Assembly: GCA_025174535.1 (NCBI GenBank)
Contig: JALBUN010000010.1
Span: 496,001-560,000, forward strand
Source of the DNA: Cantharellus purpuraceus
Taxonomy: Eukaryota; Basidiomycota; Agaricomycetes; Cantharellales; Hydnaceae
Length of the DNA: 64,000 bases
Direction of reading: 5' to 3'
Shown: in pieces, positions 1,556 to 30,235 of the stretch
Layout of the letters: each line of letters opens with the position of its first letter
Numbering within the stretch: position 1 is the first letter of the stretch
Translations under genes and position numbers: made by a program
Notes under the pieces: model-generated
The model's input: the letters and a program-made list of their open reading frames with translations, nothing else
What the model was told of the DNA's origin: nothing
Database searches by the model: none

Positions 1556-2774
1556 GGGCGACAGAGAGGGCCTGTCTTAAGTAGGGGTGGGGGGGTAACC
1601 GTGCTCGTGAACCCCAGTCAGAATCGACGTCTCAAAACGGACGCCATTGACAACGCTTGATTTAGATCTAGATTAGATCGGATGTCCTTGGATCTGCTCG
1701 TGCTTGCTCGAGATCGAGAGGCACATGTGTAAATACTTTTCCCTGCAACTATTTTGAGCCTAATCTAGTTTGGGAAAGGACATACCTTCAGCTATGAACT
1801 GTGTGTTAATTATGTGAGTTGATGTGCTTGTTCCAGCACTTACATGATAATATATTGCGTCCTGGTAAGCTGTAGCTCCAGGATGAGCATATTTTTGCTA
1901 AGTCCACTGTAGTCCTGTGAACAGAGTTCAACAAATTGGATTTGATATAAGAACTTAAAGGTTCATAAGAGGACCAGGTTTATCTGGATAAGTGGAGTGG
2001 AAATCAGAGATGGATTTGGATGTGTGATTGAGTTTGAATGATGCTCATTCAGAATGATGCCATTATACAATATTCTGATATATATGAGATATACATCAGA
2101 ATTTTAATAATGATAATAAAAATAGGAAGTTACAGATATCTTTAAAGATTTTGGATATCTTTGTCAAGGGTGGCTGAAAAAACAGAGTTCAAGGAGGTAA
2201 CCAGAATTTGGATGCTAGAGATATATGGGAAGGGACTTGACTGTTCCAGTTCAACTGGAGACAGAGTGGTGCAATAACTATTGAGTTGGATCAAGTGGAC
2301 TTGGCTTCAACTTGCATGTTGCACCCCCTTGGATCATCAGTCCAATATTTTGGAGTTTGGAGGTATGGGGTTGGATCAGAGATCTAGAGTTTGACTTGTC
2401 AAGAAGCTAGCAACCAAGAAGATGATGAAGTCAAACTTAGTTGATATATGAGCTGTTGTAACATACAGAGAATAGCCCATATAAGATATGAAGAATTGAA
2501 TGAAAAACTAGAGTAGGAGAACAATAGGATGGATTTGGAATATAACACAGAAAGGAGTTCAGAGTTTGGGCTCAAGTCTGAACTAATACTAATTAATATA
2601 AAAAGATGAAGGTGATAGTTACCCATATCAAGGAAACTACTTATCAAGAAGACAGTAAATGGAGTTTGGGGCTGTTGGAGATGGAGTTGACAGACATGGA
2701 GTAGAAGGAGGTGAAGATGGAGTCCAGAGATTGGACTTGGTGTTACAGGATGTAACAATTGTGGACAGTACTTG
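1556..2774. other. Non-coding stretch before the transposon island
   Basis: No convincing gene. The part from about 1,700 is A+T-rich and contains a degenerate piece of the small inverted-repeat element (2,040-2,160). The rest (2,190-2,770) looks like old repeat sequence, with no reading frame that resembles a protein family. Confidence 0.5.
2040..2160 (+). mobile_element. Degenerate end of a small TIR element (third family member)
   Basis: The sequence starts with GATGCTCATTCAGAA, a damaged version of the GACGCTTGTTCRGAA end seen at 18,466, and continues with ATACAATATTCTGAT, an ATACATCAGAATTTTAATAA stretch and GGAAGTTAC in the same order as the complete copy. Only one end is recognisable. 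Confidence 0.55.
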
Positions 2775-16934: not shown

Positions 16935-17843
16935 TTATACATCACGTTTCCTTTTCCCCTTCCCCTTGTCTACCTCAGGCTCCGTCTCCGACTCATCATC
17001 ACTCTCTACATCCAACACCCAATCTTTCTCATCCCCCATGTCTGAATCCTCGTCCAAAGGGGCCATGAACTTCCACAACCGACGTAACTCAGCTGTCCAC
17101 TGACCCTCCAGAACCTCCTTCCATTTCATCATCTTCACCAAGTCCACTAGTAACCCCTCCGTCCGCCAGAGGTGCTCCAACTGCAGGTTAACCAGCCAGA
17201 TAAGCTGGCCCATGGTACTATTGGGCGCAGAGACGCGCCCCATACCTGCACTGGTCGTTGCCCCTTCCAATCCAACACCGCTACCCCCAGCTGCCACAGC
17301 ACCTGTCTCCATCCACCGCTTTTTGGTCAGACAACCTTCTGTTTCTTTCTCTGCCCCTCCTTGTACCACTAGTTGGGGCTTGATGCTCCAACTCCAGGGA
17401 TCAAACTTTCCATCGATCCTACACCCTCCTTTCTGACCCCGACAACGATCACAGGACTGAAGGCAGCGAGTTGGGCCGGTAGGCCACACACACTCCACAC
17501 CCGCATCATGACACAAGTCGCATGTTATGCCGGGCCCGCCAAATGGCTCCGTTGGAGCCAGAGCCTTGGGTGGTCTGCCCCTTCTTGCTGCGGCCTCCAA
17601 GTGTTCCCTCTCCTCCTCTTTGTCCTGCTGTTCTGCTGCTGCCTTCTCCATCTCACGCTTGCAAAGCTGGATCGCCGACCTCGCGACATGCAGCTCCTTC
17701 TTACAGGTTGCCAACACATGACTCTCTGCCTTACACCATATGACCCTCCAGTCTGCCTCCCGCTTCTCCATATCAGCACTTGGGTACACCTTCAATGAAA
17801 AGACCGCAACATTGAGATTCTTCTTAGTGACTGTCTCACCTAT
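16935..17843 (-). pseudogene. Antisense Zn2Cys6/AT-hook protein gene of gypsy-1, 5'-truncated
   Basis: An uninterrupted minus-strand frame of about 300 codons with no ATG start. From the N side: a helical Glu/Lys-rich stretch (KREMEKAAAEQQDKEEERE), the AT-hook-like RRGRPPKAL, then six cysteines spaced C-x2-C-x6-C-x12-C-x2-C-x6-C, exactly the fungal Zn(II)2Cys6 spacing. After these come a Gly/Ala linker, a helical region (LIWLVNLQLEHLWR), an acidic stretch (SDDESETEPE) and a basic tail (KGKGKRKRDV). The gypsy-2 copy shows that the N-terminal roughly 300 codons have been deleted here. It lies between pol and the 3' LTR on the opposite strand. A DNA-binding nuclear protein is inferred; no function is proven. 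Confidence 0.72.
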
Positions 17844-20052: not shown

Positions 20053-20382
20053 GGAACCCAGACATCCATCCCCATCGGACTCAGACATACTCATGTAAGG
20101 CCATTGGCCTTGGAGACCCATCACTTGAGTAATTATTATTAGATTTCAAATATGTATTTAAGTTGCCTGACTGGGGACTTCATTCCCCAGTTCAAATATC
20201 AAACACCTAGTTCCTAAGTCCAATCCTAATTATCTAAGTCGTACTCCATCTCCGAAATCTCAGACACCAGTATTAGTAAGGGCACAGCACATAAGCTGAA
20301 GCCAAGTCCGTTCTGATCCCCAATTCCTGCTCCGACTCTGACCCAATCTCCAACCCAATCTCCGACTCAATCTCTGACCCCC

Positions 20383-20909
20383 TGTTATGACCATATTCAT
20401 TAACACCCAGATCCCCATCCGATCCACTCAGATCCCCACACATATGAAATCTATACTCCATTTGGAAACTGCCACGTCTCCATTCACCTGTCCAATTGTC
20501 GCCGCCAATTCCACCCATCCATCTCTGGTTCCAATTGATGCATCAGCATCACCATAGGAACCTGGACATCCGTCCCTGTCGGACTCAGACATACTCATGT
20601 AAGGCCGTCAGCCTCAGAGACCCATCACCAGAGTAATTATTATTAGATTTCAAATATGTATTTAAGTTGTCTGACTGGGGACTTCATTCCCCAGTTTGAA
20701 TATCAAATCATGCCTAGTTCCTAAGTCCAATCCTAATTCTCTAAGTTGTACTCCGTCTCTGAAATCTTGGACACCGGTATTAGTGAGGGCGCAGCACATA
20801 AGCTGAAGCCAAGTCCGTTCCAACCCCCACAATGTACCCGACTCCTTCTCCAACTCTGACCAAGACTCCAACCAAACCTCTGACCCTCAATCGGACCTAG
20901 TGCGTAACA
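20383..20909 (+). repeat. gypsy-2 5' LTR (527 bp)
   Basis: From TGTTATGACC to GTGCGTAACA. It carries TATTTAAG, the CTGGGGA/TCCCCAG inverted repeat and the putative transcript start CAGTTTGAATAT (20,692-20,703). It is inserted in the 3' LTR of gypsy-1. Confidence 0.92.
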
Positions 20910-24900: not shown

Positions 24901-25711
24901 CAGATACCACCCTGAAGGAGATGGACAAACGGAACGAATGAATCAGTCCCTGGAGCAATATCTCCGAGTCTATTGTAACTATCAACAAGACAACTGGGCT
25001 GATCTACTTCCGATAGCAGAGTTTGCCTACAACAATGCTCCGAATGCAACTACTGGCATCTCTCTGTTCTTTGCTAATAAAGGCTATCATCCAAACATCT
25101 CCGTCCACCCTGAGAGGGAACTCGCCTCCACCAAAGCCTGCCAATTCATAACCAACCTCGATCAACTACACCAACATCTCCGAGAAACCATCTCCGATGC
25201 CCAGGAACAATATCAAGTCTCCGCAGACCAACACCAGACCTGCAAATCAGAGACAAAGTATTCGTTAAGGCCAAACACTTCCAGACCACCCGTCCATTGA
25301 AGAAACTCTCCGAGAAATACTTAGGTCCTTATAAGGTCATTGCTCATGCAGGCAGCAGGTCCTTCACCCTCCGCCTCCCGGACCACTTCTGAGCAGTTCA
25401 TCTGGTCTTCCATATATCAATGCTCAAACCTGCTACTACAAATGAGATCTCTGGTCGCACGCAACCTCCACCTCCCCCAATCATCATTGAAGGAGATAAT
25501 GAATATGAGATATATATCTGAGATCCTGGACTTGAAGATCGACCATCAATACAAGTGCAAGCTCCAGTACTTAGTCAAATGGACTGGATATGAAGGCACC
25601 GATGAAGAGTCCTCATGGATCTCCACATCCAAACTCGATCATGCATCCGAATCCATCTCCAACTTTCACTCCACTTATCCAGACAAACCTAGCCCTCTTA
25701 TGAATCTTTAA
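21969..25711 (+). pseudogene. gypsy-2 pol with protease-active-site and RT lesions
   Basis: Collinear with gypsy-1 pol. The protease motif reads DSS instead of DSG (22,214-22,222). Reverse transcriptase has lost 12 nt near 23,225, removing most of the MPFGLTN motif without changing frame, but keeps YLDD (23,300-23,311). RNase H (ETDASDYALAA) and the first integrase region are longer and more intact than in gypsy-1. Integrase core marks are MDFIEKLP, TSDWGLEF and EGDGQTERMNQ. A deletion near 25,235 and a 4-bp insertion near 25,510 shift the frame before the chromodomain (LVKWTGYEG, about 25,580). Stops at 22,907, 23,132, 23,357, 24,014, 24,203, 24,487 and 24,515 are all TGA. Confidence 0.88.
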
Positions 25712-27055
25712 GTTTGATTACTAATGTTAATTCTATTATTTTGCATCATCATTTTATTACAAGTCACAAGGGAAATTACAAGTCTCCCCAAAAAACTCCG
25801 AAGGAATCACTCTGCCTCATTTTTCTCCACTCTGAAATTCATAATCATTTTCATTTTTTATACATTGCGTTTCCTTTTCCCCTTCCCCTTGTCTACCTCA
25901 GGCTCCATCTCCGACTCATCATCACTCTCTACATCCAACACCCAATCTTTCTCATCCCCCATGTCTGAATCCTCGTCCAAAGGGGCCATGAACTTCCGCA
26001 GCCGATGTAACTCGGCCGTCCGCCAACCCTCCAGAACCTCCTTCCATTTCATCATCTTCACCAAGTCCACTAGTAACCCCTCCGTCCGCCAGAGGTGCTC
26101 CAACTGCAGGTTAACCAGCCAGATAAGCTGGCCCACAGTACTATTGGGCGCAGAGACGCGCCCCATACCTGCACTGGTCGTTGCCCCTTCCAATCCAACA
26201 CCGCTACCCCCAGCTGCCACAGCACCTGTCTCCATCCACCGCTTTTTGGTCAGACAACCTTCTGTTTCTTTCTCTGCCCCTCCTTGTACCACTAGTTGGG
26301 GCTTGACGCTCTGACTCCGGGGATCAAACTTTCCATCAATCCTACACCCTCCTTTCTGACCCCGACAACGATCGCAGGACCGAAGGTGGCAAGTTGGGCC
26401 GGTAGGCCACACACACTCCACACCCGCATCATGACACAAGTCACAAGTTACACTGGGCCCACCAAATGGCTCTGCTGGAGCCAGAGCCTTGGGTGGTCTG
26501 CCCCTTCTCGATGCAGCCTCCAAGTGTTCCCTCTCCTCCTCCTTGTCCTGCTGTTCTGCCACCGCCTTCTCCATCTCGCACTTGCAAAGCTGGATCGCTG
26601 ACCTAGCGACACTGTTATGACTATATTCATTAAATGACCAGATCCCCATCCAATCCACTCAGATCCCCACACATATGAAATCTATACTCCATTTGGAAAC
26701 TGCCGCGTCTCCATCTACCTGTCTGATTGTCACCGCTGATTCCACCCATCCATCTCCGGTTCCAATTGATGCATCAGCATCACCATAGGAACCCAGACAT
26801 CCATCCCTGTCAGACTCAGACATACTCATGTAAGGCCGTCGGCCTCGGAGACCCATCACCAGAGTAATTATTATTAGATTTCAAAATATGTATTTAAGTT
26901 GCCCAACTGGGGACTTCATTCCCCAGTTCAAATATCGAATCACACCTAGTTCCTAAGTCCGATCCTAACTCTCTAAGTCGTACTCCGTCTCTGAAATCTC
27001 AGACACCAGTATTAGTGAGGGCGCAGCACATAAGCTGAAGCCAAGTCCGTCCCGA

Positions 27056-28472
27056 TGACGAGCCAGGATGCATTGAGGACATATATCAAACCACTCTGAC
27101 AGTCCAACTCCACCAGCGTCTTTTTGTACCAACTTTTAAATAGCGCCACAACTCCCTCTCCACCTCAGTCTCTAATTCTAGCCATTGATCATCACTCGTG
27201 TTTCATCGCCATCGATCATTATCAGCCTTCTATTCACACCGATCCTTTCATCATCATTCACATGGCTTCCCATTCTATTCCCCTCTCCAACATCACTTCT
27301 AATAATACGTCACACTGGTCTCTGGACACAGAGGACTATCAAAAATACACCGAGCTCCACGGGCATGTTAAGCCACCTCCACGTGTCAAAATACTTCCAA
27401 AACTCTTTCAACGTCCAAGATCCCCACCATGTCTCTCTTATGCCATTGGCGATCCCATATTCTTTCACAATTCCATTGAACCATATACATTCCTTGACAT
27501 TTCGCCTCTATATCGTAACATGGATAGAAGAGTCGAACGTGAGGTAGAATTTCAGTTGCCATCACCGACCTATCCTCCCACTTCAATCCGACTCAGGTTA
27601 CATCGTGTCAGGCAAAGGGACAGAATACTCTTGGAACAGGATACCATATGGAGACGGATCACTAAGACAATAAGGAGTATTTGTTGTGGATGCTGACTGA
27701 AGTCCTCATGTGACTCAGGGTCAATTTACCTTCAGAGCTGTAGGGAAGATGGTATTGGTGGACGTTTCTATTGTTCTTTTATATGACTCACCCCTGTTTC
27801 ATCTTTTAATTCATTCATACACAACTTACTATCCTTGTTCTATTTTTGGTTCTTTTATTACTCATCACCCCCTATTCTTACAAAGATTACCCCTATCTGT
27901 CGTTTCATTTCTCCATGATTTCCCCATTAGTAGTTCAACTTCACACGCTTCATCAGCTGGCTTGATCAGCATTTCTTGCATCATATCGCATCATTTGCTC
28001 CTCATATTGTGTCATTGTGCCCTGGGGATTTGTATATAAAAGGGCGCTAGTTTTCACCTTTGGAAGAATCAACAAGTTTTCAGCCAACACTCTAAAGTCA
28101 AAGTCCATGCTCTAAGTCTACGCTCTATGCTCTACATCACAATCCATCATCTCTACACTGAGGTAAAACACCTTGGTTCAACGATCAGATTTCCCTCCAC
28201 CACCGAGAGGTTGCTTCTCCTGAAACCAGCTTTCATGTACCTCCCAACCGGGCTCTGCATTGTCATCCAGTCACAGAGCACAATCAGCCATCGGGACCGA
28301 CCTTTTGCTCCCATCCCCATCCAACCACAGAGCACTATTCCACTTTCCTATTACTCAGTGCCGCCCCTACCCCTGATTGATCTTTGGAGTGCTGAACAAC
28401 TGCGTTACACACCGTCTGTTTGCTAGGACCGTTGCACGCAGGCTTATAGGATCTTCCATAAGTGAACCGACA
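27056..28472 (+). mobile_element. 1.4-kb TG...CA insert with an internal ORF
   Basis: It interrupts the solo LTR between TCCGTCCCGA and CCCCCATGACG. The ends are TGACGAGCC and GAACCGACA, with CCGA on both sides (27,052-27,055; 28,473-28,476); a fifth base would mismatch. A TATATAAAAGGG box lies near 28,032. It has no relation to the other elements in the window. It could be a solo LTR of an unseen family or a small non-autonomous element with captured coding sequence. Confidence 0.65.
27261..27696 (+). CDS. Unrecognised 145-aa protein inside the nested insert
   Basis: An ATG-started open frame of 145 codons. The start is a Ser/Asn-rich segment (MASHSIPLSNITSNN); the middle contains YAIGDPIFFHNSIEPYTFLD; the C-terminal third is strongly basic (RLRLHRVRQRDR, WRRITKTIRS). 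The frame is also open upstream to 27,124 without an ATG. TTTAAATAG at 27,137 could be a promoter box. There are no transmembrane segments and no known motif. It may be a captured host fragment or an element-specific gene; a chance frame is possible. Confidence 0.4.
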
Positions 28473-29598
28473 CCGACCCCCATGACGTGCTCCAACTCTG
28501 ACCCAACCTCTGACCTGACCTCCGACCCAATCTCCGACCCCCAATCGGACCTAGTGCATAACAGACACACAGCTCCTTCTTATGGGTTGCCAACACGCAA
28601 CTCTCCACCTTGCACCATATGACCCTCTGATCTGCCTCCCACTTCTCCGTATCAGCACTCAGGTACACCTTCAATGAAAAGACCACAATGTCGAGATTCT
28701 TCTTGGTGGTAGCAGCATAAAGCTCCGCTCTTTTGCAAGCCTCAACCGCGGCTACCCAAGCCATCTCCTCATAACAATTTGAGGTCAGATCCAGCTCCAC
28801 ATCTGTCCCAACATCCACACCCGCCTCGGGCTCTGCATTTGCATCGAGCTCCATATTGGCATTGGGATCCACCTCCACCTGTGCCCTCTCCGCCTCCGCC
28901 GCTTCATCTTCCTCAGCCACACCCAACCCAAATAATGGCTGTGCCCACAGACATAACAGCAAGTCCACCACAGGGACAGTTGTCGGACGAGTTGTCTCCA
29001 TCCACGTAATGGAGATGATGGTGACCTTGGGGGTCCCTGCCTGTATTGGCACACTCAGACTTCCTGGGTGGCTGGTCACCCCTGCCCCGGTCACCTCCTC
29101 CTCTACCTCCATGGCGGCTTCTAGCTTGTGTGCCTGCTCCTCCACTTCCTTCAGTCTTGCAGCCTCCATCACAGCTGCAAGTTCCTTGACCCTGCAGACT
29201 CTCTCGGCTTTCGCTTCCTCCTCTTTCCTTCTCCGTTCCATCTCTGCCTCCTCCTTCTGTCTCTGCTCCTCCCCCTCTTTGCATCTCCATTCCTCCTCCT
29301 CCTCCTCCTTCTGTCTCCGCTCCTCCTCCTCTTTGCATCTCTGTTCCACCTGCTCCTCCTCCTTCCGTCTCCACTCCTCCTCCTCCTCCTTGCATCTCTG
29401 TTCCGCCTCCTCCTCCTCCTTCCATCTCCGTTCCACCTCCTCCTCCTTCCGTCTCCATTGTGCTTCCTCCTCCTCTTTCCATTTCCGCTCCTCTTCCTCT
29501 TCCTTCCATCAGGCCAAGAGCAACTGCTCAAGCTCAGCCACGCTCATGCTTGCCAAAGGGTTTGACATTGTTGAGGATAAGACCTCAATCATGCCCCT

Positions 29599-29610
29599 CC
29601 TTTTATATGT
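29599..29610 (-). promoter_or_regulatory. TATA box of the antisense gene
   Basis: On the minus strand ACATATAAAAGG lies 31-42 bp upstream of the ATG at 29,568, about 100 bp inside the 3' LTR border. It implies that the antisense gene has its own promoter rather than using an LTR. Confidence 0.5.
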
Positions 29611-29695
29611 CTCCAGACCCCCAGTATAACTCCGACTGCGCCCAACCGTCTCACCTATTCAATCCACAGACATGAGGCCTCAGGGGCTCGGCCTT

Positions 29696-29709
29696 AAATG
29701 GGGAGATAC
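29696..29709 (+). other. Polypurine tract of gypsy-2
   Basis: AAATGGGGAGATAC ends exactly at the first base of the 3' LTR, the normal place for the plus-strand primer. The same stretch, with one change, precedes the gypsy-1 3' LTR. Confidence 0.65.
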
Positions 29710-30235
29710 TGTTATGACCATATTCATTAATGCCCAGATCCCTGTCCGATCCACTCAGATCCCCACACATATGAAATCTATACTCCATTTGGAAACCGCT
29801 ACATCTCCATTCACCTGTCCGAGTGTCACCACCAATTCCACCCATCCGTCTCCGGTTCCAATTGATGCATCAGCATCACCATAGGAACCTGGACATCCGT
29901 CCCTGTCAGACTCGGACATACTCATGTAAGGCTGTTGGCCTCAGAGACCCATCACCAGAGTAATTATTATTAGATTTCAAATATGTATTTAAGTTGTCTG
30001 ACTGGGGACTTCATTCCCCAGTTTGAATATCAAATCATGCCCAGTTCCTAAGTCCGATCCTAATTCTCTAAGTCGTACTCTGTCTCCAAAATCTCGGACA
30101 CTGGTATTAGTGAGGGCGCAGCACATAAGCTGAAGCCAAGTCCGTTCCAACCCCATGACATACCCAACTCCTTCTCTGACTCTGACCAAGACTCCAACCA
30201 AACCTCCGACCCTCAATTGGACTTAGTGTGTAACA
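29710..30235 (+). repeat. gypsy-2 3' LTR
   Basis: TGTTATGACC to GTGTAACA. It pairs with the 5' LTR at 20,383 by shared private variants. Outside it the sequence changes at once to unrelated A+T-rich DNA. Confidence 0.9.

Follow-up and report, generated by a model that had tools for sequence, protein, structure and literature searches.

Genes in antisense to gag-pol, located between pol and the 3' long terminal repeat (LTR), are known from plant retrotransposons and from the fungal element Boty, with their function being unknown (PMC7264820). In plants, these aORF-3R elements include Grande (gene23), RIRE2, and Retand with TRP28 (PMC7264820, PMC11963269), and the TRP28 antisense proteins of Retand are predicted to bind DNA (PMC11963269). 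Among fungi, the antisense gene brtn is attributed to Boty of Botrytis cinerea (Zhao et al. 2011, as cited in PMC7264820, PMC8365987, and PMC4227169). Boty-like gag-pol includes a chromodomain and the element also carries brtn (PMC4227169), which is termed an additional open reading frame (PMC8365987). In deltaretroviruses the antisense promoter sits in the 3' LTR (PMC7264820). Here, we describe an antisense gene of a chromodomain-containing Ty3/gypsy retrotransposon in a 64,000-nt stretch of the Cantharellus purpuraceus genome (the window, G000:C10:496001-560000 of 40.15 Mb). This gene is almost certainly real and part of the element. The first-pass annotation of the window, made from the sequence alone, knew of no description of such a gene for chromoviruses of mushrooms. 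For a zinc-cluster or intron-bearing antisense gene of a chromovirus this held within the literature searched (titles and abstract openings, with subscription papers mostly outside coverage); the layout, however, is described in plant elements and in Boty.

The gene occupies a long minus-strand frame, already noticed in the first-pass annotation. Located between the pol stop and the 3' LTR, this frame extends from 29568 down to 25858 and is divided into two parts by a nested LTR. After subtraction of the second copy of a GACAC duplication both parts lie in one frame of 1755 nt or 585 codons with a single TGA at codon 20, exactly as had been read earlier. The N-terminal part (28569-29568, minus strand, as are all features of the gene) contains the start codon, the TGA, a Glu/Lys-rich coiled coil, and a middle region, and is alignable in other copies. 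It is followed in the C-terminal part (25858-26612) by a second helical stretch, a six-cysteine cluster, predicted helices, an acidic stretch, a basic tail, and the stop codon. The cluster at 26344-26445 has the spacing C-x2-C-x6-C-x12-C-x2-C-x6-C. Hence, the 2-6-12-2-6 spacing, the Glu/Lys-rich and acidic stretches, and the basic tail named in the first-pass annotation are all present. An AT-hook-like RGRP motif is located upstream of the cluster at 26494-26505. A 140-bp region (29569-29708) separates the start codon from the 3' LTR. It represents the putative promoter and also occupies the LTR-adjacent position where a polypurine tract is expected. It contains the TATA box TATAAAAGG at 29600-29609 (29599-29610 in the first-pass annotation).

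In a genome-wide search with the C-terminal protein, at least 144 of 750 candidate places gave a scored match, and the longest open frame comprised 782 codons. These counts are lower bounds, and the frame is thus not confined to the two window copies. Among 30 loci collected by means of the gene, 2 of which are the window's own, a pol 3' match adjoined the gene in 29, always in convergent orientation. The remaining locus (L028) retains the spacer, but is disrupted by an insertion. Of these 30 loci, 22 possess the 140-bp LTR-side region. Because copies must not be chosen by the antisense protein, a further set was collected with pol DNA as the sole query. Scoring of 40 of 562 candidates gave 30 loci, again including 2 from the window, and the antisense gene was convergent with pol in 28 of them (26 of 28 without the window's own). 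Two loci, L045 and L047, had pol without the antisense gene. The position in antisense to gag-pol between pol and the 3' LTR and the presence in most copies of the family are those of an aORF-3R. Furthermore, the proximity to the 3' LTR, an unchanged position in 28 of the 30 pol-anchored loci, and the conserved TATA box and purifying selection described below bear out the proposal that the gene is encoded by the element.

Constraint among the copies was one of the checks suggested by the first-pass annotation. Diversity and ratios were derived from 29 of the 30 gene-anchored loci (the window copy L009 was excluded) and from 28 of the 30 pol-anchored loci (window copies excluded). After coverage and identity filters the gene-anchored set comprised 29 rows for the C-terminal part, 23 for the middle region, 28 for the spacer, 21 for the 140-bp region, 15 for the LTR, and 21 for pol. 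The pol-anchored set comprised 22 rows for the gene, of which 1 has 14 stops and is probably misaligned, 28 for pol, and 27 for the spacer. Since many differences between copies result from CpG decay, diversity was computed without any column in which at least one copy has a CpG. In the gene-anchored set, the diversity of the C-terminal part at codon positions 1, 2, and 3 was 0.021, 0.0098, and 0.076, compared to 0.077-0.092 in the noncoding spacer. The corresponding values in the pol-anchored set were 0.031, 0.020, and 0.074, with a spacer diversity of 0.041-0.069. This coding signature goes beyond what chance would give.

For shared non-CpG transitions, found in at least 2 copies and therefore older, the normalised replacement/silent ratio of the gene was 0.12 in the gene-anchored and 0.13 in the pol-anchored set; pol itself gave 0.05 and 0.03. 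For singleton transitions the ratios rose to 0.49 and 0.55 for the gene and to 0.82 and 0.81 for pol. Low shared and higher singleton ratios indicate constraint on the protein during multiplication of the element and later decay of single copies, as in pol. Thus, conservation is comparable to that of the other proteins of the element, with a somewhat weaker constraint than on pol. When read in the other five frames, the shared transitions gave 2.7-7.5 in four frames and 0.15 in one sense frame, the latter being expected because the silent positions of this frame coincide with those of the antisense frame. Transversions were few, with a ratio of 0.13 (gene-anchored) and 0.32 (pol-anchored) for shared ones. 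In 28 of the 29 gene-anchored copies each of the three sense frames contained stops (L027 is free of them in one), and the antisense C-terminal part was stop-free in 14 of these 29 and in 13 of 22 pol-anchored copies. CpG decay in this part amounted to 24% at replacement columns, compared to 41% at silent ones. In L010-L038 heavy CpG decay yields many TGA stops as well as R/W, R/Q, and R/C changes. Such decay suggests CpG methylation of repeats.

Conservation was also found outside and within the frame at sites of presumable function. The TATA box and the start codon were retained in all 21 aligned copies, and non-CpG diversity of the 140-bp region (0.014-0.026) was below that of the spacer, the LTR being likewise low (about 0.03). 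Cysteine columns 1 to 6 were retained in 29, 28, 29, 28, 29, and 29 of 29 copies, respectively.

An antisense gene of like build was identified in another chromovirus family of the same genome. Scoring of 150 out of 735 candidate chromodomain places gave five loci for inspection. One (L081) reads in translation as a host chromodomain-helicase gene and another (L082) is a member of the window family. L080 and L084 represent a further chromovirus family, in which no antisense frame of at least 110 codons with the Cys pattern was found within 2.2 kb past the chromodomain; some copies of that family have open frames of more than 1300 codons. The fifth locus, L083 (G000:C24:99300-101600), has a pol end 72% identical to that of the window element, and its antisense strand encodes CDMCIKHDDVCKW and CLACQTNRLKC downstream of a coiled coil. 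In this family 2 (L083, L085-L100) the antisense gene comprises a coiled coil, a Cys cluster split by an intron, and an acidic C-terminus. Its first exon matched 96 of 100 candidates, with identities as low as 43%, and its C-terminal part matched 87 of 95, with identities as low as 36%. Comparison of all 87 C-terminal places with the 150 scored chromodomain places resulted in 13 pairs within 2 kb (12 matches, 10 places). All 13 were convergent, nine of them at 98-108 bp, and in the place on C14 the distance of 775 bp contains an LTR-like match. The other 75 matches had no scored chromodomain nearby, which says little because only 150 of the 735 candidates were scored.

Both Cys halves were found in 12 of 16 family-2 loci. 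Between them, the antisense strand carries an intron with GTRAGT in 11 of the 12 loci (not in L089) and with TACTGAT and a 3' TAG in all 12. By hand reading, intron lengths vary between about 49 and 73, and splicing leaves a loop of about 10 residues. In 5 loci the distance between the halves is divisible by three, in the other 7 it is not. The retention of splice signals despite drifting length points to splicing of the antisense RNA. Judged from these signals, the antisense strand probably yields a spliced transcript of the family-2 gene. As the genomic RNA corresponds to the sense strand, an antisense intron would remain unspliced in it and survive retrotransposition. The ratio of nonsynonymous to synonymous substitution rates (dN/dS), available from 12 of the 16 loci, was 0.18-0.45 between subfamilies, and for the corresponding ratio of proportions (pN/pS) between groups the true frame gave 0.41, compared to 0.56-1.18 for the five alternative frames. 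By tblastn, the antisense proteins of one family show no similarity to those of the other. In profile comparison the halves paired in register, weakly (E-values of 0.013 and 0.02, probabilities of 3.3% and 2.3%; crossed, 0.17 and 0.25). Half-by-half similarity was not significant in register, and the single pair at p 0.048 is crossed. Place, orientation, build, and Cys pattern would speak for a putative common origin of both genes. The high-copy sequence preceding the family-2 gene (547 candidate places vs 100 for the gene) is probably the LTR of family 2, although a 5' partner was not found among the 40 scored of these 547. About 500-600 bp of the window (2172-2757) are 75-78% identical to this sequence and probably represent a piece of a family-2 LTR.

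The fungal Zn2Cys6 spacing is C-x2-C-x6-C-x5-12-C-x2-C-x6-8-C. This pattern is satisfied by the cluster in the window family and also in P0001, a metagenomic relative of 362 aa from a contig of 2753 bp (43-45% identity, E-value 2.5e-37). P0001 was the only protein obtained in a homologue search with words from residues 290-555 and retains the six cysteines and a CxW. Homologue searches using the C-terminal part or the whole protein yielded nothing, and no relative was found in the scanned viral contigs or in bacterial and archaeal genomes. The matches listed in a genome search with PF00172 were host genes, none of them from the window element. The best hits of one C-terminal part in a search against solved structures had E-values of only 2.1 and 4.8. 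In 24 copies with the whole Cys pattern each Cys half was scored singly, with the corresponding halves of Zn2Cys6 domains from host genes and solved structures as reference. The second half was closer to the canonical first half (basic, CxxCRxRKxKC) in 24 of 24 copies. When 5 copies were shuffled, p-values for this fit were 0.03-0.29. The first half, which does not show the basic character of the PF00172 first half, is ambiguous and fits neither canonical half well. It was closer to the canonical second half in 17 of the 24 copies with low scores, and profile comparison with host domains aligned it weakly to the canonical second half (probability 8.3%). This half swap was not matched by the family-2 first halves or by P0001. 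A plain claim of a half-swapped Zn2Cys6 domain was weakly supported and not adopted, as the scores of the second half are below those of every true first half. A half-swapped cluster is a possible reading of the residues. Hence, the Zn2Cys6 assignment of the first-pass annotation stands with respect to spacing, but not with respect to a Pfam match or to the order of the halves, since the half best resembling the basic first half stands second.

We consider it fairly probable that the gene encodes a nuclear DNA-binding regulator which is accessory to the element. It would thus represent an accessory gene carried by a Ty3/gypsy retrotransposon with a chromodomain, on the opposite strand to gag-pol and situated between pol and the 3' LTR. 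An antisense mRNA would be driven by the promoter adjoining this LTR, and the protein may dimerise via its coiled coil, be taken into the nucleus by the basic tail, and bind DNA through the Zn2Cys6-like cluster. Such a protein would most likely control transcription or the chromatin placing of its own element. Several results weigh against this explanation. Both window copies of the gene are broken. There was no Pfam match for the 2 window C-terminal parts at E-values up to 1 or for 4 copies at E-values up to 10. The second Cys half scored at most 2.2 against the first-half profile, compared to 3.1-19.8 for true first halves, and AlphaFold models were of low confidence (mean predicted local distance difference test scores of 45 and 47). 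The AT-hook suggested by the first-pass annotation is present before the cluster in the window, but is not a feature of the family: its core RRGRPP occurs in 10 of 29 copies only and is lacking in P0001. Singleton transversions gave a ratio of 0.31 in the gene-anchored set and of 1.09, i.e. no constraint, in the pol-anchored set. Finally, gene and pol distances were not correlated across copies (r 0.09; 1307 of 5000 permutations were as high), which may reflect recombination between copies or low diversity at the pol end.

The missing match to a DNA-binding profile and the low agreement of both Cys halves with Zn2Cys6 would also suit a real element protein that acts in the particle or on RNA, like a nucleocapsid or a chaperone, and has a structural or RNA-binding Cys cluster. 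Selection and position are compatible with any accessory protein. Against such a role speak the combination of a spacing typical of Zn2Cys6 with a coiled coil, an acidic stretch, and a basic tail, and an antisense mRNA that would arise separately from gag-pol. We regard this explanation as unlikely, but as one that deserves to be taken seriously. It is improbable that the antisense RNA matters more than its protein by silencing or tuning the sense RNA through double-stranded RNA. The antisense promoter is kept and a role of this kind has been discussed for plant elements (PMC7264820), yet it is the amino-acid positions of a single frame that are under selection, and the family-2 intron restores the reading frame of the Cys cluster.

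Even less weight is given to a host gene or another transposon that was carried along through chance insertion. Pol without the gene in L045 and L047 would be in line with such a passenger. Identical junctions at unrelated places, with pol adjoining in 29 of the 30 gene-anchored loci, and a gene of like build in a second element family argue against it. The least credible of the alternatives is that there is no gene and that the frame is open by chance or due to base composition. Stops in 15 of the 29 C-terminal parts and CpG decay that reaches replacement sites, too, would favor this view, but it leaves the codon-position signal, the kept promoter and start codon, the kept intron, and the 43-45% identity of P0001 unexplained.

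As a tentative extension of the regulator interpretation, both families may belong to a fungal chromovirus lineage with its own antisense-transcribed and partly spliced zinc-cluster regulator, older than similarity at the tblastn level, whose cluster is perhaps a half-swapped relative of Zn2Cys6. Multi-copy 'Zn(2)-C6' hypothetical proteins exist in mushroom genomes, and some of these would be such retrotransposon proteins if the shared lineage holds true. This would also call for caution, because some zinc-cluster 'host' genes in fungal annotations would then belong to retrotransposons. Selection on the antisense protein is measurable across many copies, the promoter is visible, and the family-2 intron is removable only from antisense RNA. 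Thus, expression and role of these genes are directly testable.

The element itself is bounded by LTRs at 20382-20909 and 29709-30235 on the plus strand, the 3' copy being 92.8% identical to the 5' copy. Its forward frames are short and broken. Gag, RNase H, and the chromodomain were above the Pfam cut-offs in these frames, and the integrase (rve) was below its cut-off. The chromodomain (PF00385, E-value 5.1e-7) is part of the pol end at 25340-25711 on the plus strand and, located at the pol C-terminus, identifies the element as a chromovirus. The spacer from the pol stop to the antisense stop (25712-25857, no strand assigned) adjoins the gene in other copies, too. The nested LTR (26613-28563, no strand assigned) is of the same family and is flanked by the 5-bp duplication GACAC at 26608-26612 and 28564-28568. 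It is itself broken by a repeat of 1.4 kb (27051-28474), pieces of which of at least 200 bp occur in 7 others of the 30 gene-anchored loci. The second window copy of the antisense gene (16935-17829, minus strand) consists of the C-terminal part only, is 94% identical on DNA level, and is cut by LTR sequence at 17830. In another locus, L068, pol end, spacer, and antisense gene are duplicated in tandem.

HBZ of human T-cell leukemia virus type 1 (HTLV-1) is a bZIP nuclear regulator produced from a spliced antisense mRNA at the 3' end. The likeness to the gene described here is in layout only, i.e. an antisense gene at the 3' end, in keeping with the first-pass annotation. HBZ is not related to our protein, in which no bZIP domain was found (the two longest of the scanned copies matched no Pfam family at E-values up to 10) and whose regulator function is inferred. 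If this function is correct, an own zinc-cluster regulator would be the retrotransposon's functional counterpart of retroviral antisense regulators. With fungal Zn2Cys6 factors (PF00172) the protein shares six cysteines at canonical spacing, a coiled coil, and acidic and basic stretches. It differs by the lack of a profile match, by the first-half-like half standing second, and by the N-terminal position of its main coiled coil. Plant aORF-3R genes have the identical place and orientation, are present in most copies, and in some cases encode proteins that are nuclear or thought to bind DNA; Grande also has an antisense promoter upstream of its gene. In contrast, their hosts are plants, TRP28 and SMC domains take the place of the Cys6 cluster, and the descriptions consulted mention no intron. 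Retand, moreover, is not a chromovirus. A further likeness is to Boty, which is likewise a chromodomain-bearing Ty3/gypsy element of a fungus and has its antisense gene in the stretch from pol to the 3' LTR. This comparison refers to the layout of brtn. While the layout itself is thus already known, the zinc-cluster, intron-bearing kind would be an addition to the known antisense accessory genes of LTR retrotransposons.

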